DNA of 64,000 nt from a virus. The position numbers were made by a program, and so were the translations under genes. Position 1 is the stretch's first letter. Every line of letters starts with the position of its first letter. Below, one piece after another: positions 4,138 to 34,543 of the stretch. The stretch is from positions 1-64,000 of the IMG/VR virus record IMGVR_UViG_3300030737_000007; one strand, written 5' to 3'. The notes under the pieces are model-generated. The model was not told the origin of the DNA. It worked only from the letters and a program-made list of their open reading frames with translations, and made no database searches.

Positions 4138-4536
4138 TTACCTCGGAGGGATGATTGACTTGGGGAGGTTTTTTAGCAGGACCGCCGTCAGCTTTTGGGT
4201 CTGGTTCTCCAGCATGTTTTGGAAGAACGGGCGCGTCGTGTCGGAAAGGAAGGGTTCAGCGTGGTCGTGAAAAGGATCAACCAGGATGTGGCAAAGTTCG
4301 TGGGTGAGAATCAAGACCAAGTGGTCGATGTCACCCTTTTTGAAATCTTCCTCGCACATCTGGTACGTGGTGAGGTGCGCCTGCATATAGGTAGAGTCGA
4401 TACAGATGTCTGCGGCGCAACTACCTTTAGCGGCTGGGACATGTTCTATGGTGATGATCCACCCCGGAAGGTTGAGGTAATCAGCCATCCGCGTTACGAA
4501 GCTGGCGACCCAGCTCCCGTACGTCACCTTCTTCAT
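4138..4536 (-). CDS. HExxH zinc metallopeptidase-like protein
   Basis: 132 aa. Contains 'LILTHELCHILVDPFHDHAE' at about residues 76-95: an HExxH zinc motif (HELCH) with further His/Asp/Glu residues downstream that could supply the third ligand. This identifies a minimal zincin-type hydrolase or its inactive relative. Substrate unknown; in this place it may process virion or host envelope proteins. Followed by the 3426-4136 gene in the same operon. Confidence 0.6.
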   Translation of the reverse strand: MKKVTYGSWVASFVTRMADYLNLPGWIITIEHVPAAKGSCAADICIDSTYMQAHLTTYQMCEEDFKKGDIDHLVLILTHELCHILVDPFHDHAEPFLSDTTRPFFQNMLENQTQKLTAVLLKNLPKSIIPPR

Positions 4537-4550
4537 TTTGGCTCCGAGGA

Positions 4551-5138
4551 TTACTCGATGTCGTGGAGGTAGGACAGCTCGATCGCGGCCAGAGGATCCA
4601 TCACAGTACGGAAGCCCGATGCAGAATCTTTATTGAAGCTCTTCTTCTTGCGCCACTGGTAGAAGTCTGGGTCCGACTGCTTGAAGATTCGCTGGCAGAC
4701 AGTGCAGATACCGGTGGTCTGGCCTACGTCGCCGCGGTGCCAGATAATGGACGTGCGGCCCGCGATGTCTTTGGACTCGCTCAGCGGACTGCAACCGGCT
4801 ATGTGCTCGCAGTTGTCCTGGGCGAACTTGTTGTTGGCCTTGGTGCGCTTTTCCTGCTCGCGCTGCTGGTCCTTGAACTGCTTGTCGTTGGCTTCATTCG
4901 CCAGGTCGCGCGCAGATTTGAGGGCTTCTTTCGGTTCAGCCAGCTTGAGGATCGCATCGGTCTGAGCGGCGCTTGCGGCTGCGGCCTGCTTCTGAACCTC
5001 GATCAACTGCTGTTGCATACTGGCTACGAGCGTCAAAAGTTGCTCGGTAGACATTGCGGGCTGGACTGCTTCGACGGCCTTCGGGGTTTCGGGTGCTACA
5101 GATGCTGCGGAAGTTTCTTTGATGGTGGCATTCGCCAT
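4551..5138 (-). CDS. Coiled-coil protein with C-terminal CxxC
   Basis: 195 aa, not recognised. N-terminal Ala/Glu/Pro-rich segment, then a Gln/Ala-rich coiled coil (about residues 30-100), then a Cys/His region (C..HIAGC, 'ICTVCQRIF') that could bind zinc. A degenerate copy of the dispersed 15 bp site lies inside the coding sequence at 4738-4752. Probably a minor virion or assembly protein. Confidence 0.5.
   Translation of the reverse strand: MANATIKETSAASVAPETPKAVEAVQPAMSTEQLLTLVASMQQQLIEVQKQAAAASAAQTDAILKLAEPKEALKSARDLANEANDKQFKDQQREQEKRTKANNKFAQDNCEHIAGCSPLSESKDIAGRTSIIWHRGDVGQTTGICTVCQRIFKQSDPDFYQWRKKKSFNKDSASGFRTVMDPLAAIELSYLHDIE
4738..4752 (+). repeat. Dispersed 15 bp site (variant)
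   Basis: TGCCAGATAATGGAC, inside a leftward gene, opposite to its transcription. Confidence 0.6.
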
Positions 5139-5171
5139 AACGGGCTCCTAGTCCAATCCGGACTGACGGGG

Positions 5172-5846
5172 TTATATGATTTTGGTGCTGTTGCGGTGGT
5201 TATGAAGGTGCTTGTACCACAAAGAGCTTTCCCCGCCAGAGGGAGGACCAAACTCTTTGTTGCACTGCTGCTCGGTAAGGATGTTGTTTTCGATGAACCG
5301 GATTAGTACCGAGCGCCAACCCATTTCAGTGGTTCGGATCAGCACGTCGCGGGCCTCGTCGAACTCATACGAAGAGAACTCAGGCATCATGCCAAGGGTC
5401 ACGTAGCCTAGGTATTTGAAGGGATTGCCGCCCCATTCAGGCTTGTTGACGCCGTTCGTCACATACAACGCCAGATCAGTGACAATTCCACCCTGCGTGA
5501 CGTACAAACTCGGACAGATGTGATGGAGTTTCTGAAGGAACAGAGAAGCATCCATCGCCCGACCCCGACGATCTTTACGCATTTCTTCTTGATCAGGATG
5601 GCGCTGACGTTGGGTTCCGTGAGAGTTGAAGTTCATTTCCTTCAACCTGGATACATGCTCGGCGATACTGAGGCGGGGGGCTTCGAGGCACTTGAAACAC
5701 TGCGCGCCGTGGCCTGTCTTGCGAGAGGAATCTTTGGGGTAGAACTTGAAAGTCAACAGTCGCGCGCAAGACTGGCACTCGATTCCACGGATCTCGTTGT
5801 CTACGCCCGCCTCGTAGTCGATGATGTCAAACTCGTCTACGATCAT
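5172..5846 (-). CDS. Hypothetical protein with two CxxC pairs
   Basis: 224 aa, not recognised. Residues ~20-55 contain two CxxC pairs ('CQSC', 'CFKC'), a plausible zinc ribbon. The rest is mixed alpha/beta without known motif. Overlaps the upstream gene by 4 bp, so it is in the structural operon. Confidence 0.5.
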   Translation of the reverse strand: MIVDEFDIIDYEAGVDNEIRGIECQSCARLLTFKFYPKDSSRKTGHGAQCFKCLEAPRLSIAEHVSRLKEMNFNSHGTQRQRHPDQEEMRKDRRGRAMDASLFLQKLHHICPSLYVTQGGIVTDLALYVTNGVNKPEWGGNPFKYLGYVTLGMMPEFSSYEFDEARDVLIRTTEMGWRSVLIRFIENNILTEQQCNKEFGPPSGGESSLWYKHLHNHRNSTKII

Positions 5847-6097
5847 TCAGGCATCCAGATCTTGCTCTCTGGCGCGGCTTCTTCTTGGGGAAGAGCCTCA
5901 CTCAGCTTGGCGTCGATCGACTTGATGAAGTCGAGGACAATCTCACCGTCTTCCCCAGGCTCCGCGTTGACACCAGAAGCGCGCTCGATGATCAGAGACC
6001 CGTCTTCCTTCTTCAGGACAGCGACGATTACGTGGCCGACTACGGATTCAAAAACCAGCGGCTCGGCAAGTCCGTCTACGCGCACGGATACAGACAT
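5843..6097 (-). CDS. Hypothetical small acidic protein
   Basis: 84 aa, acidic, beta-strand-rich N-terminal half ('VSVRVDGLAEPLVFE') and helical C-terminal half. Its stop overlaps the next start by 4 bp. The 110 bp upstream gap holds a perfect copy of the dispersed site (6126-6140). Function unknown. Confidence 0.5.
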   Translation of the reverse strand: MSVSVRVDGLAEPLVFESVVGHVIVAVLKKEDGSLIIERASGVNAEPGEDGEIVLDFIKSIDAKLSEALPQEEAAPESKIWMPE

Positions 6098-6125
6098 GTG
6101 GCTCCTTGGCCCATTGCTCGGGCGA

Positions 6126-6140
6126 TTCCAGATAATGGAA
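6126..6140 (+). repeat. Dispersed 15 bp site
   Basis: Perfect TTCCAGATAATGGAA in an intergenic gap. Confidence 0.85.
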
Positions 6141-6209
6141 AGTGTGCCGGTTTTGGTCTATGGGAGACCGGCGGACCCGTTCAGATGCGACCGAAGTCGC
6201 TGAACATCT

Positions 6210-6890
6210 TTATACGCGATCCAGAACAAACTCCTGCACCGAAATCGTGCTGGAAGCGGCGTTTCCGAGCGTCACTGTGGCCGACAACGAGAGGAGGGCG
6301 GCAGTCACGCTGGCAACTGAGGTAAAGGCGGTCGGGGCGGTCCACTGTTTGGTGGCACCATACGCGATATTCGCGGTATACCAACCCGTGAAGATCTGGG
6401 AAGTGGGGTCCCACTGCGCCGTGGCTTCGATATAGAAGTTGAACGCTCCGCCAGCCGCCATGGCGAGACCAGCACCCGTGGTGCCGATTACGTTATTCGA
6501 GGCGGGGGTTGTGGACGTGCCCTGACGGAGGTTGAAGGTTACCGTCTGACCCGCATTCGCGCCCGCGTTGCCGATACCAGCGATACGGATTTTCATCAAG
6601 TGGGCGTTCCACGAGTTGACGCTGAACTGGTCGTTCGACTCTCCGCTGGGGAGGCCGTACACCATCGCCGAGCGTTCAGTGACCGCCTGGTTGGCGTTGG
6701 TATCCAACCCGCCAGTTGCGCCGTAGACCTGACCGCCCGTGGGGACGACGAGAAAGTAGGGGGTTGTGCCGGTGTCAGTGTTAACCACCAGTTGGGTTTC
6801 GGTAGTGGCTACGGCGACAGTTTGCACAGGAAAACTATTCCTGACGGTTCCGCTTAGACCAATTCCCGCGACGCTGCTTGTATTCGACAT
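6210..6890 (-). CDS. Virion surface/decoration-like protein
   Basis: 226 aa, very rich in Thr, Ala, Gly and Ser, low in charge, as in beta-sandwich decoration or fibre subunits. The C-terminal ~70 residues ('QWDPTSQIFTGWY' ... 'SSTISVQEFVLDRV') are recognisably related to those of the gene at 29284-29919 ('VWDSVTKILAY' ... 'TTSIVVTEFVINRL'), so the phage has a divergent pair. Decoration role is inference from composition and context. Confidence 0.5.
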   Translation of the reverse strand: MSNTSSVAGIGLSGTVRNSFPVQTVAVATTETQLVVNTDTGTTPYFLVVPTGGQVYGATGGLDTNANQAVTERSAMVYGLPSGESNDQFSVNSWNAHLMKIRIAGIGNAGANAGQTVTFNLRQGTSTTPASNNVIGTTGAGLAMAAGGAFNFYIEATAQWDPTSQIFTGWYTANIAYGATKQWTAPTAFTSVASVTAALLSLSATVTLGNAASSTISVQEFVLDRV

Positions 6891-6951
6891 TTGTTTATTC
6901 CTTTGAAGTTATTTTTGGGTTTGCTCTAAGCCCCTGACGCAGGCTAAGGAT

Positions 6952-7578
6952 TTATGAAACGGTGTCTGCACGATTTCCAGGTTGAACTCGGGCGGGTTTG
7001 AAGATAGGTTCGGCCCCGAGTTTGCCGTTGCTTAGGTACATAGCAACCGCCCCGCCTGGGTCAACCAAAATGCTTTTATGATCCTGATATAACGTCGAGC
7101 CTAGTTCGTGAATCACGGACGAATGGGCGACGATCAGAGGGGGTACTCCGCACTCCATGAACACGTCAACCGCTTCAAAGAAGCAGGGCTGAATTCGCGT
7201 TTTGAACTCGTTGAGTGACTCGCCGCCGGGGATCTGGGTGTCGGGGTCGTCCAAGTAGACTTGAAGATCCGCTTCCGACTCGGGAGTACGCTTCTGGCCA
7301 GAGAAGTCACCTACGTTCAGGGCGCGCAGGGATTCCGATTTGTGAATTGGAATTTGCTTCTCGCGCGCGATAATCCCAGCGGTCTCGGTAGCCCGAACCT
7401 TGTCGGAACTGAAAATGTGGGAGATGTCGATCGTGCTGAAGAGGTTAGCGATTATTTCAGCATCGCGGATACCTTCAGGAGCTAGAGGAGGGTTCAGGTT
7501 ACCTCTGAAACATCCAGATTGGTTGAGCGTTGTCGAACCGTGCCTGACGATGTAGGCCACGATGGTCTTGTCGGACAT
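6952..7578 (-). CDS. Histidine phosphatase (phosphoglycerate-mutase-like)
   Basis: 208 aa. N-terminal 'AYIVRHGSTTLNQ' carries the catalytic RHG motif of the histidine phosphatase superfamily; 'SSDKVRATETA' (about residue 58) supplies the second phosphate-pocket Arg, 'GESLNEFKTRI' the acidic region and 'LIVAHSSVIHEL' the second catalytic His. The complete active-site set indicates a working enzyme. Substrate cannot be told; small-phosphate or sugar-phosphate metabolism near the two sugar enzymes is possible. A likely auxiliary gene in a structural block. Confidence 0.8.
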   Translation of the reverse strand: MSDKTIVAYIVRHGSTTLNQSGCFRGNLNPPLAPEGIRDAEIIANLFSTIDISHIFSSDKVRATETAGIIAREKQIPIHKSESLRALNVGDFSGQKRTPESEADLQVYLDDPDTQIPGGESLNEFKTRIQPCFFEAVDVFMECGVPPLIVAHSSVIHELGSTLYQDHKSILVDPGGAVAMYLSNGKLGAEPIFKPARVQPGNRADTVS

Positions 7579-7589
7579 GGTGTTTCCCT

Positions 7590-7892
7590 TTAGCAGGATA
7601 GACCGATGTCACCCACGTAAAGGGTCTCAGTCGTAATACTCGCAATCAGCGCCCCGCCACCGGACACGGGCGATTCAAACTCAATTCCCTCCAGCTCGAT
7701 CTTCAGTTCCAGGAGGAACGGGGCGAACTCGGGGTGTTTCACCATCTCGGATTTTCGGTTCGCGAGAAGTTCCACGGCGAAGCGTCTGTAGTCGCGGGTG
7801 GCCGACTCGTTGCGGGCCAGGTCGCGGAGGACTCCGTCGGGAAGGTGCTGAAGATGATCCCAGCGGTCGTCCCATATATCTTTGTGTGCCAT
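7590..7892 (-). CDS. Hypothetical protein
   Basis: 100 aa from the chosen ATG at 7892 (MAHKDIWDDRWDHLQ). Longer in-frame starts at 7904 or 7931 exist, but the latter would run into tRNA-Thr. Helical, acidic and aromatic-rich N-terminus, beta-rich C-terminus. Not recognised. Confidence 0.4.
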   Translation of the reverse strand: MAHKDIWDDRWDHLQHLPDGVLRDLARNESATRDYRRFAVELLANRKSEMVKHPEFAPFLLELKIELEGIEFESPVSGGGALIASITTETLYVGDIGLSC

Positions 7893-7922
7893 GTCGTATT
7901 CCATTTCTCGGAAAAATTGTTT

Positions 7923-7997
7923 TGGAGCCAAGATTCAGACTTGAACTGAAAACCTAACCATTACGAGTGGTTTGCTCTACCGTTGAGCTATCTTGGC
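7923..7997 (-). tRNA. tRNA-Thr (CGU)
   Basis: Full cloverleaf on the minus strand: acceptor GCCAAGA/TCTTGGC, U8-A9, D arm GCTC..GAGC, anticodon stem AACCA/TGGTT around loop CTCGTAA (anticodon CGU, codon ACG), T arm TTCAG-TTCAAGT-CTGAA. A discriminator U and encoded CCA follow. No long variable arm. Confidence 0.9.
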
Positions 7998-8466
7998 GGA
8001 AGGGTCGGACGAATTTCCGTCGTCCTTCCTACTGGCGTTGTAGACCTAACGCGTTCGGGTCGCCCATTACTCCGGGTCCAGAGCATAGCTTGTTTTGTCT
8101 ACGGCTGGTGAATTTCTGGAGCAGCGGTTGGGACGTATGCTACGTTCGGGATAACCCGGTAGACATTGGGTCTGATTCCAACCGCCGCATGGTTTGGAGC
8201 GCCCTCTCGCGCGTGTCACACCACTGGTTACGACAAGGTGTCGAAGATCAGGCCGTCGCCCAATACCAATCTCCTAAAACGCAGGCCGCTGTTCCTAATC
8301 GGTTTTGGACAGACTTGCCCGGCGAGTTTCGTACAGCGGGGATACGGTTGGAGATCGTCCGCCCGTGCCCGCTGTTCTAATACCCACCAGCCTGAACAAT
8401 CTCCTCGCGCGCCGGGGGCTAACCAGCGGGCGGCTTGACCCCGAGGAGGAACAACGACCAGCCAAA

Positions 8467-12676: not shown

Positions 12677-13363
12677 TTACTGCGGGGATGCTTCGCGCTG
12701 GCGGCGGTTCTTTTGGGCTTCGCTTAGCTTGGCACGGTGTTCGGGCGACAGTTGACGACCTAACTTAGCTTGCCTCATTTTCTCAAGAGTCTCGGGAGAG
12801 AATTCTCGACCGAGCATCCGTTGCCTAATCTTTTCGCACGTTTCTTCGGAGTGCGGGCCTAGCTTTACGCCGCGCGTCCGAGCGCCTATTTTCTCTTTCG
12901 TTTCCTCGGTGTGCGTTCTTCCGAAGAAAGGATTCTTTTCTCCGACCAGCAACCCCGTCAGCGTTTCACTAATCTTCTGCCTTGTTTCGGGAGCAACTGC
13001 TCGACCGTAAGAAGGACTATCTGCTCCCTTGCGAGGATTCAGCCGATTGGGGTTCAAGTCACCGTAGGAGAAGCCTTCTCCGCCGTGGGTGCTGTTGTAT
13101 CCAAACTTGCGATCAGAGGATCGTAATTCTTTGATCCATTTCCGTTCCGCGTCGTCCAAATCATCTACGTTGTCTACTACTTCAAGGGTAGACAGAACGA
13201 AAGCTCCGGGGCCGTACTTGCGAATAGCGTGGCTAAAGTAGATGTTTTTGCCTTCTTCGGCCAGCTTGACGTGGGAACGCCAGCGGACGTGAGGCTCTTG
13301 AACGGTCTTTCCTACGTAGACTTTTCCGTTCACAGTGTTCGTAATGCAATAGATTACTGCCAT
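12677..13363 (-). CDS. GIY-YIG homing endonuclease (SegB-like)
   Basis: 228 aa. 'VIYCITNTVNGKVYVGKTVQEPHVRWRSH' gives the GIY-YIG core (Y..I...GKVYVGKT..., catalytic Arg in RWRSH); the catalytic Glu is probably in the following segment. The C-terminal half has four NUMOD3-like DNA-binding repeats ('SPETRQKISETLTG', 'HTEETKEKIG', 'HSEETCEKIR', 'SPETLEKMRQAKLG'). ATG 13363 chosen after AAGGTGAG. Sits just downstream of the MCP gene, where homing genes often insert. Confidence 0.85.
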   Translation of the reverse strand: MAVIYCITNTVNGKVYVGKTVQEPHVRWRSHVKLAEEGKNIYFSHAIRKYGPGAFVLSTLEVVDNVDDLDDAERKWIKELRSSDRKFGYNSTHGGEGFSYGDLNPNRLNPRKGADSPSYGRAVAPETRQKISETLTGLLVGEKNPFFGRTHTEETKEKIGARTRGVKLGPHSEETCEKIRQRMLGREFSPETLEKMRQAKLGRQLSPEHRAKLSEAQKNRRQREASPQ

Positions 13364-13449
13364 TTTTCTCACCTTCCCGTGAGTTTTGGTTGAGGAGGCC
13401 GTGGGGAAGCACAGCCCCCTCTTCCAAACTTTTGTAAATCTAATCCCTA

Positions 13450-13502: not shown

Positions 13503-16399
13503 TCACAACACTAGCTGGAGGAAGTCTGAGACTGCAACCGGCGTAGCGTCATGGTAGAACCAGGCGAATCTGTTACCTTTTCCATTATGTGGAAACGGGC
13601 AAGTCGTTTCTGTTCCGCTTGCCTCATACGGTTGTTATTCCCGTATGTCCAGACTATTGCATACCTTTGCGGGTCTTCTTCGCTTAGTCGTTCACGGTCC
13701 CGTGTGTAGGGTTCCGCCTCGTTGGCATCACAGCGTCCGAGTCAATCAGAAGAAGTTTTACCTGCGCCGATGATTTAACGCAGGGTGTTGGTATACCTTC
13801 ACGGCTGTTATCTGCTGTATTACCAGCAAGATGAGTCATTTCTGCTCACCTCTTATGGTTCCAATTCCCATAAGGTCGGACTATCGCATCACCCCGAGGG
13901 GTGTTCTATCGCTTAGTCTCTCACGGCCCCTTTCGGGTTCCGCCCTGTCAGCCATCTCAGCTTCCAAGTCAATCAGATAGAATTTTCTAACTACGGCTCT
14001 CACCGTAGCGACGCAAGTATGTCTACGTTGTAGCTGACCCACGAACTAAGCTACGTTTACCAACACAGTCGGAGGCTGGGTCTGCACACCACCGATTTGA
14101 CGCGCAGGATCCGAAACCGAACCCTGTTCTGGAGCAGACTGGATGAAGAGCTTCACGTTTGTTACTCACCGTTGCCGATGGGGCGGGTCATTTCTGCTCG
14201 CCTCTGTACGTCACCGCACAGGTCGGACTATGTCATCACCCTCTTGCGAGGGGCAAGGTATATAGTCTCTACACGTTCCCGGATGTTCTCGGGCTTCGCT
14301 CGGCGTTTTCTCCAAAGGAGACGTTCACCGAATTAGCCTTGTGTTCGAAAGCAATTACTCGCTTAAGCTACCATTTTCAAATAGTTCTTCGATCCGTCTT
14401 CAGGATTCTTGCCGAGGAACACGGAGAAAATCGCGTCATCGCCAAAAATGTAAGTGTTGTAGAATGTGTTACCTGAGATGGTAACAGTAGGTGCCGTGGT
14501 CGTCTGCTTGAACTTAACCCCGCCGAACTTGATGACATCTTCGTTCTTCGGGAGCTCGAACAGCATAGCGCGCATGGAATCGTCACGCTTGATAATGTCG
14601 GTCAGACCATTAAAGCTCGTGTCGTTCAATACGTCGCGCACGACGTTGGGGTGGATGATTCCGCCGAACGAGTTGTCCATGAGAGGACGAGCGTTGACGG
14701 ATGCCAGCGACTGGGCCGCAGAGCGAATGTTGTTCGCAGTGAGGTAGGAGCCGTTGGCGAGCTGGATGTTCACCAGGGAATCGACCGCAACAGCCGAGTC
14801 AGCGGTAAGCTGGACAAGGGAGTTGAGGGTGAGGGCCAGGCGATAGTTCAGTTCGTTTGCAAGGTTCTGCAACAGACCTGGGTCATCGATGGCCACGTCG
14901 AGTGCCAAGTCCGAGGAATTGATAAAATCAGCGTACTGGCCGATTGTAGCAACGATCTTCGAGCTGGACTCGCTGATGGGGGAGCCCACGGTCCCTTCCG
15001 CCGCCTGGTTCAAATTGGCTGCGAGGAGAGCGTAGGTGTAGACAGTTGTGTTTTGGAGATGCCCTTTCGGGTCACCGGGCTTTCGCCCCTCTTATGTCAC
15101 CATAAGGTCGCTCTGTACGTCGCCGCACAGCTCGGACTCTATCTTCATTTCCAGATAATGGAAATGTCCGGCGTATTAGCCTCTACGGGTTCTGGTTGCC
15201 CAGTCTTCCCTCGGTATTGTCTCAAAGAGAGTTCCACCGATATAGCCGGATTTTACTTCAGCACATTAATACTGAATCTGGTTTCCCTGCCGAAGAGGCA
15301 GAGGGCGCTGCTTGGTCATGCTCAAAAAGGGCGTTTGGGCCTTGAGATTGGGCACGGCCTCGCGTTCATCATTGTGTTTAGGCCGCCAGCATCTCTGATG
15401 GGGCGCTCTGCATATCGCTATGCAGTTCAGACTGTATCTTCAGTTTCTTCAAAGCAATTAGGCGAAGATAAAGTTCTTCCCGTTTGGGCGGGCAATGAAC
15501 CTTGTGGCCTAATCCAACGTATTCCATTCCAGCTAGGGCCTCGTCTCTCTTGACTACGAGATACGGAAGCGTGTGGAGGAGAAACTGCTCAATGTGGAGT
15601 TTGTTGAACAAAGACCACTGGAAACAATTCCTTTTTCCTTTACTTCGAACGTCGCCGCCGTACAGTTTCTTGCAAGAATCAAGCACGGTCTTGTCGTTGT
15701 TCGAGATGGTCACGATCAGATGGTAGCAGATAACACCCCGAGAGAGGGTTTTGTTCACTCGGATGCAACCTTCGCCATCAAAGAAACCAGCCATGTAGGA
15801 GGGTTCTGCTTTGAGGTAACTGCTGTTCGTCTCAGTCGTTACGGACCCGTGTTGCTTCATTTCCTTGAGTTTTTGGAGGTATCCATGTTTCTGGTCCTCG
15901 GACAGATTTTCTCTGTTCTCAATAAACTCAATCAGAACGTCAGCTTGTTCCCTTTTGTATCTCAAGTAGGGCAGAATAGCTTTAAGGAAAGCAACGGTAG
16001 AAGGGAAGGATTGCAGGTACCAAATGTACCAATCCTCGCCTGCCTTGTTGTTTACATTGCGGGTAAAGCTGCCCCCGAAATGTAGCACAGACCACTGCAT
16101 CAAAGCTCTTGATTTATTGCTCAAGTATACTTTGGGTTCGAAGTAGGTCTTGCTTCCTCGTTTGTGGGTGGCGATCCGGATGCAACCTTCTGCATCGAAA
16201 ATCCCAGCCATGTAGCTTTTGGTTTTCTCTTTCACGGTTTCCTCGGTATTGTCTATATCCTTATGCTACCACACCTAGTAGTAAAAGTCAACAGAGTTTC
16301 ACCGATTTAGAACAGTTTTACTTCACCAAGAATTTAGTGAATGGCCACCAAGTTCGGTAGCGCGCCAGATGTAACGATTGATGCAGGAGAGTAACTCAT
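13503..16399 (-). CDS. Major capsid protein (N4-gp56-like), six exons, five group I introns
   Basis: Joining exons 16399-16340, 15382-15268, 15042-14365, 14164-14048, 13822-13782 and 13595-13503 gives 1,104 bp, 368 codons with one terminal stop, a normal MCP size. Exon 1 ends 'GALPNLVAI'; exon 2 reads 'NLKAQTPFLSMTKQRPLPL', exon 3 'YTYALLAANLNQAAEGTVG' through 'DGSKNYLKMVA', exon 4 'VKLFIQSAPEQGSVSDPARQ', matching the order in N4-gp56-type capsid proteins. Each joint follows a T and each intron ends in G. Boundaries may be off by several bases; intron 2 has an alternative pair (ATT|CAT). Exon 5 (about 14 codons) is the least certain. Lies after the scaffold-like gene. Confidence 0.75.
13580..13594 (-). 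repeat. Dispersed 15 bp site (variant)
   Basis: TTCCATTATGTGGAA in MCP exon 6, right after intron 5. Confidence 0.65.
13596..13781 (-). ncRNA. Group I intron 5 of MCP gene
   Basis: About 186 nt, no ORF. Elements: CTGATTGACTCGGACGC, AACGACTAAGCGAAGAAG, GCAATAGTCTGGAC and GGCAAGCGGAACAGAAACGAC, each with a counterpart in intron 4. Confidence 0.7.
13823..14047 (-). ncRNA. Group I intron 4 of MCP gene
   Basis: About 225 nt, no ORF. Elements: GAGAGACTAAGCGATAG, a CACCCCTCGGGGTG hairpin, GCGATAGTCCGACC (P7 pairing GACTA/TAGTC) and GAGGTGAGCAGAAATGAC. Sister of intron 5 rather than of introns 1-3. Confidence 0.75.
14165..14364 (-). ncRNA. Group I intron 3 of MCP gene
   Basis: About 200 nt, no ORF. 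Elements: TTCGGTGAACGTCTCC, AGAGACTATATACC, GACATAGTCCGACCTG (P7 pairing GACTAT/ATAGTC), GTACAGAGGCGAGCAG. Related to introns 1 and 2. Confidence 0.8.
15043..15267 (-). ncRNA. Group I intron 2 of MCP gene
   Basis: About 225 nt, no ORF. Core elements in order: ATCGGTGGAACTC, GAGACAATACCGAGG, then AAGATAGAGTCCGAGCTG and GTACAGAGCGACC. Strongly similar to intron 1. The dispersed 15 bp site (15149-15163) sits in a loop between these elements. Confidence 0.8.
15149..15163 (+). repeat. Dispersed 15 bp site inside intron 2
   Basis: Perfect copy in the intron, opposite to transcription. Confidence 0.85.
15378..16235 (-). CDS. LAGLIDADG homing endonuclease inside MCP intron 1
   Basis: 285 aa, single-chain enzyme with two LAGLIDADG motifs: 'YMAGIFDAEGCIRI' (about residue 9) and 'YMAGFFDGEGCIRV' (about residue 148). 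Each is followed by a DNA-binding alpha/beta half. The acidic residue of each motif (D/E) is present, so it is probably active. The C-terminal codons overlap the P7-P9 part of the intron and the stop overlaps the start of exon 2. It would cleave intronless MCP genes and spread the intron. Confidence 0.9.
   Translation of the reverse strand: MKEKTKSYMAGIFDAEGCIRIATHKRGSKTYFEPKVYLSNKSRALMQWSVLHFGGSFTRNVNNKAGEDWYIWYLQSFPSTVAFLKAILPYLRYKREQADVLIEFIENRENLSEDQKHGYLQKLKEMKQHGSVTTETNSSYLKAEPSYMAGFFDGEGCIRVNKTLSRGVICYHLIVTISNNDKTVLDSCKKLYGGDVRSKGKRNCFQWSLFNKLHIEQFLLHTLPYLVVKRDEALAGMEYVGLGHKVHCPPKREELYLRLIALKKLKIQSELHSDMQSAPSEMLAA
15383..16339 (-). ncRNA. Group I intron 1 of MCP gene (with LAGLIDADG ORF)
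   Basis: 5' core AATCGGTGAAACTC ... GACAATACCGAGG (P3-P4-P6 type) near 16310-16245. The 3' core AAGATACAGTCTGAACTGC (P7-P9 part) is found near 15430, inside the end of the LAGLIDADG gene. A pairing ATTCAC/GTGAA at the 5' junction resembles the one in intron 2 (ATTCAG/CTGAA). About 957 nt. Confidence 0.75.
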
Positions 16400-18475: not shown

Positions 18476-18490
18476 TTCCATTATCTGGAC
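18476..18490 (-). repeat. Dispersed 15 bp site
   Basis: TTCCATTATCTGGAC between portal stop and the next gene. Confidence 0.8.
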
Positions 18491-20559
18491 TAAACGTCTG
18501 AGCCAAATCCGGTTTGGGCGGAGGGTTCTCCTGTTAATTCAAGGGGTTCCACAGATTTCTTAAAGCCTTCCCTTAATACATCCCGGGCTGCTCTTGCGAT
18601 ATTGCTGCTGTCGTCCCTTTGCTCAGCCGCGGCATCTTTCTGCGCCTGAAGCTGTGCTTGGGCCTGCGCCTTTTGTTGAATCTGCCCACCCTGCGATTGC
18701 TGTTGTTGCCGCTGAAGATCTTGCGGGGTCATGTCCACGATCACGTCGTTCAGGTTCTTGAAGTCGGCGGCCTCAAACCACATGTGGACCACCTCCATCA
18801 CGTTGACCTTCTTGCCTTCGATCGAGAGCGAGGAGATGACTTCGGGGTTGGACAGGAACTGAGATAGCATCGGGAGCGCTTGGGCCATGTTGCGGCGCGT
18901 CTGCATCTTGGACCCAGCGAGGATGGAGAACTTCACTCGGGCGTTCAGGATGTCGATCACGTCGCCGCCGGACTGCACGTACTCGTGCTTCAGCTCTTCC
19001 GACATGATGAAGTTCAACTGCGACTCGGGTAGCATCTCCCGGTTCATTTGCTGCATGTCGTAGAGCAGCGGCACGATGACCTGGTCGGCCAGATTGTCGA
19101 TGAACTCCGAGATGCCCGATGACGCGCCCTGCGCAAGAGCCTGAGCTCCGGCAGAACTGCGCGCGAGATTGGAGTGGCCCGAGGAACCTGCGTTGCCGCC
19201 CATGATCGGGTTGTTGCCCGAGACGGTGTCGGCGCGGCCCTGCGACATCGCCATAAGTTCCCCGGCTTCGGGGATGGCGGGCAGGCGCTGAAGCGGCTCA
19301 AGGTCGCCCTTGGTATCCACCTCGATGATCTTGCCGGGGCAGATGCGGATTGACTGAGTTGGGATGCTCTTGCCGCGGACGCGGACGAGCGGGGTGTTCA
19401 GGTTCAACGAGGCGTTGTCCAGCAGCAGGTTGGTGATGCCGGTCATCAGGCGCTGCTCGGAGCCGATCGTGCGCCCGAGGCCGAGCGACCAGTACCCGCC
19501 GGGGATATTCCACCAGCCGATAGAGTAGAACGGGATCTTGCCGTAGACGTTCTTGCCGTTGTAGATGACCAGTTTCTTCTGGAGCACCACGATGTACGTG
19601 CCGTTGTCCCACCGCTCCAGTACCTCTAGGGGTTTCTGGAAGGGGTCGGCGGTCGTGGTATCCCAGCGGGCTTCTGCACGGGCTTCCCAGAGCGGGTTGC
19701 GCCCGCCGATTTCCCCGATAGCCGGATCAGCCGTCTCTGCGGGCGGCATGAACAGCATCATGAGGTTTTCGCGGGACGGGATATCGTATCCCTCGCGGTC
19801 CCGCAGCTTGTCGAGGTCTTCCCACGTCATGTAGCGGCGGCGGACGACGTACTTGGCCTTGCGGATGTCCGGAACACGTAGCCCGGGGTCTACCAGGACT
19901 TCGCGGAGGTCTACGATGTGCTCGAACGTGGGCCGGTCGATTACTTCTTCGATGATCTCTTCTTCGAGTTCACCATCGGAGATGCGGGTGTCAGGCGCGC
20001 CGGGGATTCCGGACGGAATTACGACGGAGGGGTTCTTCCGCTTGACTATTTTGCGCTCTTGGGTGAACTTTTCCCAGCCCCATTGGAACATGGAGGTGCC
20101 AAACAGCAGGCAATTGAAGATTCCGAGCTTCAGTTCGGCCCGGAAATCCATGTCGTCGAGCTGGTAAGCAAGCAAAGCGGAGGTCGCGCGCGCCAGTTGG
20201 GCGGTCGTTCCGGGCCGTTCCTGCACCATAAACGGCGGGTTTTCGTAAAATAACCCGGACATTACCTGCGGAACTATGCCATTTACAGCCGTTGCGACCG
20301 TGAAAAAGCTGATCGAAGCGGCCTCAGATTGGGTTCCGGGCCAGTATCTGGGCTGAAAAGGGGACTGGTAGAGGGTCTGTGCGGCTACCCAGCCGAGGCA
20401 AAATTGCCTACTCAACTCAGCTTTCTCAGCGCGTTCCGCGTCTTGAAGACATAATTTGAGGGCTGGATTTTCTTCCCACACGCCCTCGGACAAAAAGCCC
20501 CGTGCTTCGGCAGGTGTTACCTGCTCATAAACGTTATATGGGGCTTCCGGCAAGTTCAT
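18490..20559 (-). CDS. Portal protein
   Basis: 689 aa. Long portal of podophage-like type: N-terminal 'ARGFLSEGVWEENP', a core with 'FEHIVDLREVLVDPG', 'YWSLGLGRTIGSEQRLMTGITNLLLDNASLN' (central alpha-helix and stem region), 'SQGRADTVSGNNPIMGGNAG', and a Gln/Ala-rich C-terminus (residues ~610-650). It would form the dodecameric DNA channel at the capsid vertex. Gene order terminase-portal-scaffold-MCP supports this. The dispersed site 18476-18490 marks its 3' end. Confidence 0.8.
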   Translation of the reverse strand: MNLPEAPYNVYEQVTPAEARGFLSEGVWEENPALKLCLQDAERAEKAELSRQFCLGWVAAQTLYQSPFQPRYWPGTQSEAASISFFTVATAVNGIVPQVMSGLFYENPPFMVQERPGTTAQLARATSALLAYQLDDMDFRAELKLGIFNCLLFGTSMFQWGWEKFTQERKIVKRKNPSVVIPSGIPGAPDTRISDGELEEEIIEEVIDRPTFEHIVDLREVLVDPGLRVPDIRKAKYVVRRRYMTWEDLDKLRDREGYDIPSRENLMMLFMPPAETADPAIGEIGGRNPLWEARAEARWDTTTADPFQKPLEVLERWDNGTYIVVLQKKLVIYNGKNVYGKIPFYSIGWWNIPGGYWSLGLGRTIGSEQRLMTGITNLLLDNASLNLNTPLVRVRGKSIPTQSIRICPGKIIEVDTKGDLEPLQRLPAIPEAGELMAMSQGRADTVSGNNPIMGGNAGSSGHSNLARSSAGAQALAQGASSGISEFIDNLADQVIVPLLYDMQQMNREMLPESQLNFIMSEELKHEYVQSGGDVIDILNARVKFSILAGSKMQTRRNMAQALPMLSQFLSNPEVISSLSIEGKKVNVMEVVHMWFEAADFKNLNDVIVDMTPQDLQRQQQQSQGGQIQQKAQAQAQLQAQKDAAAEQRDDSSNIARAARDVLREGFKKSVEPLELTGEPSAQTGFGSDV

Positions 20560-21481
20560 TTTTGTTCCTCGGGGCGAATTTGGACGGTCTTAGAGCCGTT
20601 CCAACGCTCTTTAATCGGTTGCGAACCGTAGCAGATGTGCAGCCGAGAGCCTGTCCAACTTCCTTCGTGGACATTCCGGACTGATAAAGTTCGAGCATCC
20701 TGTTGGTGTTTAGGCGCTCTTGAGGTAGATTATTGGAGGGTCGGAGAGCGATGGAGAGGCCGTCTAGCCTTCCTTTGACGCACCCCATTGAGCATCCCAG
20801 AGTATCCGCAACTTCCTGAAGCGTAAGTCCGCTTTGGTAAAGGCGCACCAAGCGGACGCTATCTACGTCCGAGCGGTATAATGGGTTTGATTCGCCGCCA
20901 ATAGACCGTTTGTTGACCAAACATTCGGGGCGAATTTTATACCCGTGCCTGTGCCGACCCTGCCCGACTAGAACACCAGCCTTCTTCATGCGCAGGGTTA
21001 CCAACTCGGTCGAGCAATTGAACTTGGCGGCGATCTCTTTGCGCGTCAGCATCTCATCAACGTAGAGATGTCGAATCTCTTCGGTCGAAATATCAGCCCG
21101 ATAGTGGCTATGTCGAGTAGGATCCGCGGCCAGCGTAGCTTTGAGAGTCTTGGCCCGAGCCTTCCGCATGTGCGGACTGATGCCGGTCCACCCGTCTCCT
21201 CCCCAAGTGCAGACATACCCGTGCTTGGAGATGTGCGCGCCGAAGAGGAGAATCCAGATGCGTTCCTGGTAGTCAGCCTCGGCTTTCGTCTCAACGGTGA
21301 GAAACGGCTCGCAGGTAAAGTTCTCGACGCCGTATTTCCGCATAGCCTTGTAGAGGGGCTGTTGTTCGCCCTTCCGTAGGTCTTTGAGGTGGTTTCTCCA
21401 CCGATGCGGGACGCCGCATTTGGTCTGGCCAACGTAGAGTTTGTCGTTGACGTGGTTCTGAATCAGATATATGGTGTACAT
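20534..21481 (-). CDS. GIY-YIG homing endonuclease with HTH repeats
   Basis: 315 aa. N-terminal GIY-YIG domain ('YTIYLIQNHVNDKLYVGQT', Arg in 'HRWRNHL', Glu near 'VENFTCEPF'). Residues ~135-310 hold at least three helix-turn-helix units ('TRKEIAAKFNCSTELV', 'TLQEVADTLGCSMGCV', 'STKEVGQALGCTSATV') for DNA recognition. Stands alone between terminase and portal, overlapping the portal start by 26 bp, with its own promoter. Its homing target may be the junction it occupies. Confidence 0.88.
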   Translation of the reverse strand: MYTIYLIQNHVNDKLYVGQTKCGVPHRWRNHLKDLRKGEQQPLYKAMRKYGVENFTCEPFLTVETKAEADYQERIWILLFGAHISKHGYVCTWGGDGWTGISPHMRKARAKTLKATLAADPTRHSHYRADISTEEIRHLYVDEMLTRKEIAAKFNCSTELVTLRMKKAGVLVGQGRHRHGYKIRPECLVNKRSIGGESNPLYRSDVDSVRLVRLYQSGLTLQEVADTLGCSMGCVKGRLDGLSIALRPSNNLPQERLNTNRMLELYQSGMSTKEVGQALGCTSATVRNRLKSVGTALRPSKFAPRNKNELAGSPI

Positions 21482-34182: not shown

Positions 34183-34262
34183 ACCCGGCGGTATCCGGGT
34201 TAGCTCCCCTACAACCTGGCCGCCAAGTGGCGGGGAGCGGGCAACGGGTTTATCCCGGCTAA
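34183..34262 (+). ncRNA. Structured leader RNA candidate
   Basis: Hairpin ACCCGG-cggtat-CCGGGT (34183-34200) then GCTCCCC...GGGGAGC (34203-34238), which shares bases with an alternative stem CCGCC-aagt-GGCGG. A third hairpin GGG-tttat-CCC follows. Similar two-hairpin layouts precede genes at 34078 and 35456. Confidence 0.35.
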
Positions 34263-34285
34263 TAGGTTGAGAAAGAGAGGGTTAC

Positions 34286-34543
34286 ATGAGAAAATATCCT
34301 GAACACGAAAAACAAGCGAAGGTGCTCGACCAGAGTCAAACAATTGGCTCGTTCCTAGATAACGGCGGTCTGGGTGATGGTGTAGTTTTAGCCAAATGGG
34401 ACGAACGTCCGGGGAGGGATAATCTGTACCCCATCCACATGGATATCAACAAAATACTCGCCGCTTATTTTGAGATCGACCTCAACAAGATCGAAAAGGA
34501 AAAGCAGCAGATGCTGAAAGATCTCCGAACGGCTGCCGCATGA
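34286..34543 (+). CDS. Hypothetical protein
   Basis: 85 aa (MRKYPEHEKQAKVLDQSQTI...). 'SQTIGSFLDNGGL' and a helical C-terminus; not recognised. Preceded by a structured leader; coupled to the next gene (ATGA). Confidence 0.45.
   Translation: MRKYPEHEKQAKVLDQSQTIGSFLDNGGLGDGVVLAKWDERPGRDNLYPIHMDINKILAAYFEIDLNKIEKEKQQMLKDLRTAAA

Follow-up and report, generated by a model that had tools for sequence, protein, structure and literature searches.

A capsid protein gene in seven exons

The window analysed here, a stretch of 64,000 nt, belongs to a virus record of 91,894 bases (IMG/VR IMGVR_UViG_3300030737_000007) and carries on its minus strand, at 13511-16399, a gene for the major capsid protein (MCP). 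No single frame spans this gene, as a preliminary description of the sequence had already noted. We mapped the exons with a custom spliced protein-to-DNA aligner, using as references the intact MCPs of three relatives (L018, L012 and L044). All three gave the identical set of seven exons, which after splicing encode a complete MCP of 327 codons that aligns without gaps. The intervening sequences measure, in order, 966, 228, 227, 46, 225 and 213 nt. Every junction in the spliced alignment has the form T|...G|, again in agreement with the preliminary description; the aligner rewarded T| and G|, which biases it towards such boundaries, and gave no reward for a U.G pair in the guide.

16336-16399 (minus strand): MCP exon 1, 64 nt, encoding MSYSPASIVTSGALPNLVAIH-Y (spliced alignment to L018, L012 and L044)
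15271-15369 (minus strand): MCP exon 2, 99 nt (spliced alignment)
14381-15042 (minus strand): MCP exon 3, 662 nt (spliced alignment; the frame of this exon matches PHROG 1357, major head protein)
14088-14153 (minus strand): MCP exon 4, 66 nt, KLFIQSAPEQGSVSDPARQIGG; its final 8 nt are the exon strand of P1 (spliced alignment, guide scoring)
14025-14041 (minus strand): MCP exon 5, 17 nt, WVSYN-V (spliced alignment)
13778-13799 (minus strand): MCP exon 6, 22 nt, RYTNTLR (spliced alignment)
13511-13564 (minus strand): MCP exon 7, 51 nt plus stop codon, PGSTMTLRRLQSQTSSS* (spliced alignment)

The earlier model of six segments and 368 codons has to be replaced by seven exons and 327 codons, uninterrupted relatives having 327-330. 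Its 3' exon boundaries and its exon number were wrong: the 46-nt intervening sequence at 14042-14087 and the exons of 17 and 22 nt had been missed. We infer that about 41 codons of the 368-codon frame, whose segments had not been given, were intron sequence.

An intact relative (P0006) matches PHROG 1357, 'major head protein', with an E value of 1.9e-17 over residues 7-296, which is most of the protein. Of the original assignment to N4-gp56 capsid proteins, a distant relatedness survives and is likely from the sequence match to TIGR04387 (E 1e-10), but the score of the intact relative (41.2 bits) lies below the family cut-off of 60. A Pfam search of the MCP gave no match, and none of the solved structures is related to it in sequence. 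The locus is the MCP gene of a tailed phage whose hosts are probably soil Acidobacteria. Three other features of the window, all outside the capsid gene, are listed here.

12677-13372 (minus strand): free-standing GIY-YIG homing endonuclease with NUMOD3, directly 3' of the capsid gene and in no intron
20534-21481 (minus strand): GIY-YIG endonuclease ORF with HTH repeats, sharing 26 nt at its 3' end with the start of the portal gene (18490-20559)
34203-34271 (plus strand): match to an HDV-like ribozyme (Rfam RF02682, 45 bits vs a cut-off of 44), with an ATG at 34287 just downstream

Five group I introns

The five long intervening sequences are group I introns, predicted to be self-splicing.

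15370-16335 (minus strand): group I intron 1, 966 nt, codon site 21.1, with a core split by its ORF (spliced alignment; Rfam RF00028, 27 bits, below cut-off)
15378-16235 (minus strand): LAGLIDADG homing endonuclease ORF within intron 1, 285 aa (PF00961, E 1.2e-11)
15043-15270 (minus strand): group I intron 2, 228 nt, site 54.1 (RF00028, 53 bits, above cut-off, match spanning 15113-15280)
14154-14380 (minus strand): group I intron 3, 227 nt, site 275.0 (RF00028, 50.9 bits, match spanning 14204-14392; model R1, 20.4 bits)
13800-14024 (minus strand): group I intron 5, 225 nt, site 302.2, the proposed core donor for the mini-intron described below (R1, 139.6 bits, E 5e-28)
13565-13777 (minus strand): group I intron 6, 213 nt, site 310.0 (R1, 146.6 bits, E 2e-29)

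The preliminary description had counted five group I introns, and as a count of those that bear a core this is exact, because the five long sequences are detected by Rfam together with R1, a covariance model that we built from 13 introns of other phages with the window excluded. In R1, 26 of 31 pairs are backed by two-sided (compensatory) changes. The Rfam search that had been suggested for this purpose succeeds in part: RF00028 passes its cut-off for two introns, matches one below the cut-off and misses two. Over 13550-14110 Rfam returned no match at E <= 10, despite the two introns there that score strongly with R1. A weak R1 match to the Rfam-confirmed intron 3 was also seen, and the positions of R1 matches (376 kb around the gene, 38 loci) are those at which the aligner, independently of the model, had placed the MCP introns.

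A 46-nt intervening sequence with a guide and no core

The shortest intervening sequence, which we call a mini-intron, lies between exons 4 and 5.

14042-14087 (minus strand): core-less mini-intron, 46 nt, site 297.0 (spliced alignment, guide scoring; 19 more cases in relatives)
14077-14084 (minus strand): P10 strand of the mini-intron, CAGACCCA, pairing with the start of exon 5, TGGGTCAG (guide scoring)
14069-14076 (minus strand): P1 strand of the mini-intron, GCCTCCGA, pairing with the end of exon 4, TCGGTGGT (guide scoring)
14049-14054 (minus strand): X strand of the mini-intron, GTAGCT, pairing with AGCTAC in exon 5 at 14030-14035 (read from the sequence)

P1 has a U.G pair at the 5' splice site and one U-U mismatch, and the P1 and P10 strands together fill about a third of the 46 nt. 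The catalytic core (P3-P8) is absent from it, R1 giving no match there. Helix X is weak in the window and has equivalents in relatives; RNA folding of this mini-intron favours a different structure. With the U.G of P1 and P10 present and the core missing, the element appears to work like a group I intron yet to be incomplete as a member of the group.

Annotation pipelines would read the gene as ordinary splicing of five group I introns and nothing else, the 46 nt then being an artefact of assembly or alignment. This is hardly credible, since the identical 46 nt recur in the five contigs L004-L008, which come from as many other datasets, and other mini-introns are found in relatives.

Introns and mini-introns in related capsid genes

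An uninterrupted MCP gene was found in about 24 IMG/VR relatives and in one contig of a Candidatus Sulfotelmatobacter genome bin. Among 66 representative genes, 25 have no introns and 41 have from one to ten. Their 126 long introns are spread over 45 sites, with a T at the exon end in every case and a terminal G in 119. Along the gene tree introns have come and gone repeatedly (at site 302.2, for example, there are 8 changes), so that turnover is rapid. The highest number, ten, is reached in the sister contigs L077 and L078, which come from different datasets and in which a single 329-codon capsid gene at about 4502-8349 contains eight introns of 167-201 nt and two with long inserts (635 and 766 nt); L067 has nine. 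At site 302.2, the introns of L022 and L067 continue for about 25 nt past the usual GTAACA..AAG end, with a hairpin before the splice site. We also considered that L018 might be a contig of spliced cDNA, which found no support, no intron-bearing gene being more than 79% identical to its exons. The closest cultured relative, Tunturiibacter phage Tunturi_3, was examined as a possible intron bearer and carries the gene, annotated as major head protein, in one uninterrupted ORF.

The family contains 20 mini-introns of 32-59 nt in total. The main set of 18 includes that of the window, and two more come from contigs fetched afterwards. The 18 occupy codon positions 29, 32, 40, 92, 186, 268, 297 and 310, and they recur in unrelated lineages, with at least 12 changes on the tree. 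For each one we scored the best continuous guide across the joined exons, a procedure in which U.G is not favoured and earns less than a U-A pair. In each of the 20 a P1 guide places U.G at the 5' splice site and is adjoined by a P10, and the base facing the last exon U is G in 18/18 of the main set. P1 extends over 7-9 positions and P10 over 3-8, the two being directly adjacent as in the internal guide of a group I intron. The mean P1 + P10 score was 30.7, vs 14.1 when junctions were exchanged among sites and 15.8 when the mini-introns were shuffled (n = 18); the two later cases passed the same test (p <= 0.0005) and both have the U.G. Both helices are longer than in full introns, with mean scores of 17.1 for P1 and 13.6 for P10 against 13.7 and 6.5. 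When mini-introns at the same site were compared, exon against guide, 20 cases were compensatory, 6 one-sided and 0 broken, in comparisons that are not independent and that lean towards pairing through the trimming of helix ends to the best score. In one example, CCGAACCU/GGGCUCGG vs CCUAACCU/GGGCUAGG, the guide matches a synonymous change in the exon.

In most mini-introns the 3' half also pairs with positions of roughly +5 to +20 in the next exon, forming helix X. This pairing exceeds that of shuffled sequences (Fisher p 1.5e-12), and full introns lack it at their ends. In the window and in some other mini-introns of site 297 X is short (5-6 bp) and alone not significant; at this site it tracks the exon in three forms, GCUAC, GUUAC and CUUAC. 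Unprompted RNA folding gave exactly two hairpins for four of the six mini-introns tried, the first being P1 with the 5' splice site and the second X, whose loop contains the 3' splice site. Folded in this way, P10 would be a loop-loop contact.

Two side observations concern the short sequences themselves. The 297.1 mini-intron of L016 and the 186.0 mini-intron of L079, at unrelated sites, have the leader AGCAGCATAATTA in common, and similar leaders occur in full introns, a hint of common origin or of a functional P1 loop. Furthermore, two still shorter T|..G| inserts break the capsid frame, one of 10 nt at L068:6922-6931 (TTATAATTTG) and one of 14 nt at L138:1646-1659 (AAAGAATAATATTG). The guide search was not significant for either of them; they are not explained by the mini-intron model and may be sequencing errors.

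Probable removal of the mini-introns

Retention of the mini-intron leads to a premature stop in 18/18 cases. Downstream of it, dN/dS is 0.03-0.15 in most measurable pairs, including 0.04 over 286 codons for L063 vs L064, both of which carry a mini-intron at codon 40; L056/L138 gave 0.32 over 16 codons only, and synonymous sites are saturated in a few pairs. In each of 12 records checked the MCP gene is single, with no second copy. Judged on this sequence evidence, the mini-introns are very likely removed at the RNA level. The preliminary description had the capsid protein depend on five splicing events: the dependence stands, but the number rises to six excisions, one of them of an element that is not a self-contained ribozyme.

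A mini-intron might instead be a non-functional relic left by the deletion of a group I intron, and the gene would then be defective or yield a truncated capsid protein. Its ends do resemble intron ends, and an internal deletion is plausible as its origin, but we regard the relic as improbable given the recurrence in unrelated lineages, the compensated pairings, the strong purifying selection downstream and the single MCP copy; some mini-introns, moreover, lie at codons 29-40, where retention would abolish the protein. Even more doubtful is that the ribosome passes over the 46 nt by translational bypassing as in T4 gene 60, despite the similar length and the hairpins near the take-off point. 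Bypassing requires that the take-off and landing codons match. In the window these would be GGT and TCG, and they match in none of the 12 phase-0 cases, which makes this explanation unlikely; many mini-introns also split a codon, and two hallmarks of group I introns seen here, P10 and the U.G at the 5' splice site, play no part in bypassing.

A neighbouring core as the likely catalyst

A full group I intron lies downstream of every mini-intron (18/18 and both later cases), usually 16-39 nt away. The distance is 40 nt or less for 15 of the 18, counting by eye the L070 mini-intron at 268, whose contig stops inside the next intron, vs 9 of 126 full introns (p 1e-11). For the remaining three the next full intron is at 151-182 nt, and for the two later cases at 29 and 52 nt. 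In half of the cases the gene has no intron upstream of the mini-intron. The downstream intron at site 186 differs in kind: that of L079 measures 642 nt and has a CGGTGGAACTC core, that of L082 measures 204 nt and is of the R1 type, which suggests that any nearby group I core is sufficient. A tree-controlled association test at site 297 went in the right direction and was not significant, the sample being too small; the association is partly shared by descent. A search for a base-paired tether between mini-intron and downstream intron found none above swapped controls or chance.

From the arrangement of these sequences it is likely that the downstream core is used in cis. Group I cores could also remove the mini-introns in trans, from any free phage intron RNA, or from elsewhere in the transcript. 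Excised group I introns stay active ribozymes, the same pairing evidence fits such a catalyst, and the missing cis tether agrees with it. It would, however, not need a full intron downstream, which is present in 18/18 cases, mostly within 40 nt, while half of the mini-introns have no intron upstream, and we consider it unlikely.

Use of the downstream core in cis could proceed as follows. The mini-intron would be a group I splicing substrate without a ribozyme, its internal guide pairing both exons together (P1 the 5' exon, P10 the 3' exon), its 3' half tied by X to the next exon and its end formed by omega-G. It would first form the P1 and X stem-loops, with the loops joined through P10. P1 would then dock into the core of the adjacent downstream group I intron, where bound GTP would cut after the U of the U.G pair. 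Subsequently omega-G would occupy the same G site, the exons would join and a fragment of about 47 nt would be freed. Finally, the downstream intron would splice itself using its own P1. In the simplest view the downstream core would act twice, on the P1/P10 of the mini-intron and on its own guide, in whichever order. We know of no natural case in which a second P1 docks into a core that already holds its own.

Altogether, we give a probability of roughly 0.7 to the reading that the window contains five self-splicing group I introns and a core-less mini-intron cut by the core of its neighbour, the 327-aa MCP resulting after six removals. It also seems rather probable, with somewhat more reserve, that core-less group I introns of 32-59 nt (P1, P10, X and omega-G) form a natural class that arose repeatedly in one phage gene family and is excised by the core of the next group I intron, one ribozyme thereby serving two reactions with two guides.

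Comparison with known systems

Group I introns are textbook cis ribozymes, each with its own catalyst, and a separation of substrate and catalyst has long been discussed for the path from group II to spliceosomal introns. If introns consisting only of a guide and splice sites exist as proposed here, they would represent a natural separation of this kind in a different intron class and a simple system in which it can be tested. The most abundant protein of the virion would require as many as ten splicing events. Genes of this type systematically defeat annotation, and anyone reading phage genomes must reckon with exons as short as 16-22 nt and with introns of some 40 nt.

Deletion derivatives of the lysin intron of Streptococcus thermophilus phages, described by Foley et al., have reportedly lost parts of the ORF and kept the ribozyme; they are likewise shortened phage group I introns, whereas the mini-introns lack the ribozyme entirely. 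The bypassing element of T4 gene 60 is likewise about 50 nt long and within a coding frame, but the mini-introns have group I pairing and no codon match. Full phage group I introns (T4 td; Twort; Bastillevirinae, with up to three in a single gene, PMC11878797) resemble those found here in their T|...G| junctions, the U.G of P1, P10, the P3-P8 core and, in some, a homing endonuclease ORF. They differ from the capsid genes of the present family, where a relative (L077) reaches ten introns in one gene, the smallest exons measure 16-17 nt and some introns lack a core. The statement in the preliminary description that several group I introns in one phage gene are known is correct and extends to the capsid gene itself: capsid genes of crAss-like (Zeta) phages are cut by several group I introns (PMC7886860). 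Similarly, intron-rich Jug phages have essential genes split by several group I introns, with splicing seen in metatranscriptome reads (PMC12363816). These crAss-like Zeta and Jug phages belong to a clade unrelated to the phage of the window, and the consulted sections of the two papers describe no core-less introns.

In the literature that we searched, which includes few subscription papers, no description of core-less or non-autonomous group I introns was found. The mini-intron is apparently an undescribed kind of intron, a variant of group I splicing that probably borrows the core of a neighbour. Its closest analogue is provided by the group III introns of Euglena chloroplasts, which like the mini-introns are very short and degenerate, have kept the substrate parts and have lost the catalytic domain (PMC4424553), and which are thought to depend on trans-acting factors (PMC4424553). 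Group III introns derive from group II introns and reside in an organelle, whereas the mini-introns consist of group I parts (P1, P10 and omega-G) and reside in a phage. The core-less class, if true, would give group I its own equivalent of the group III introns.
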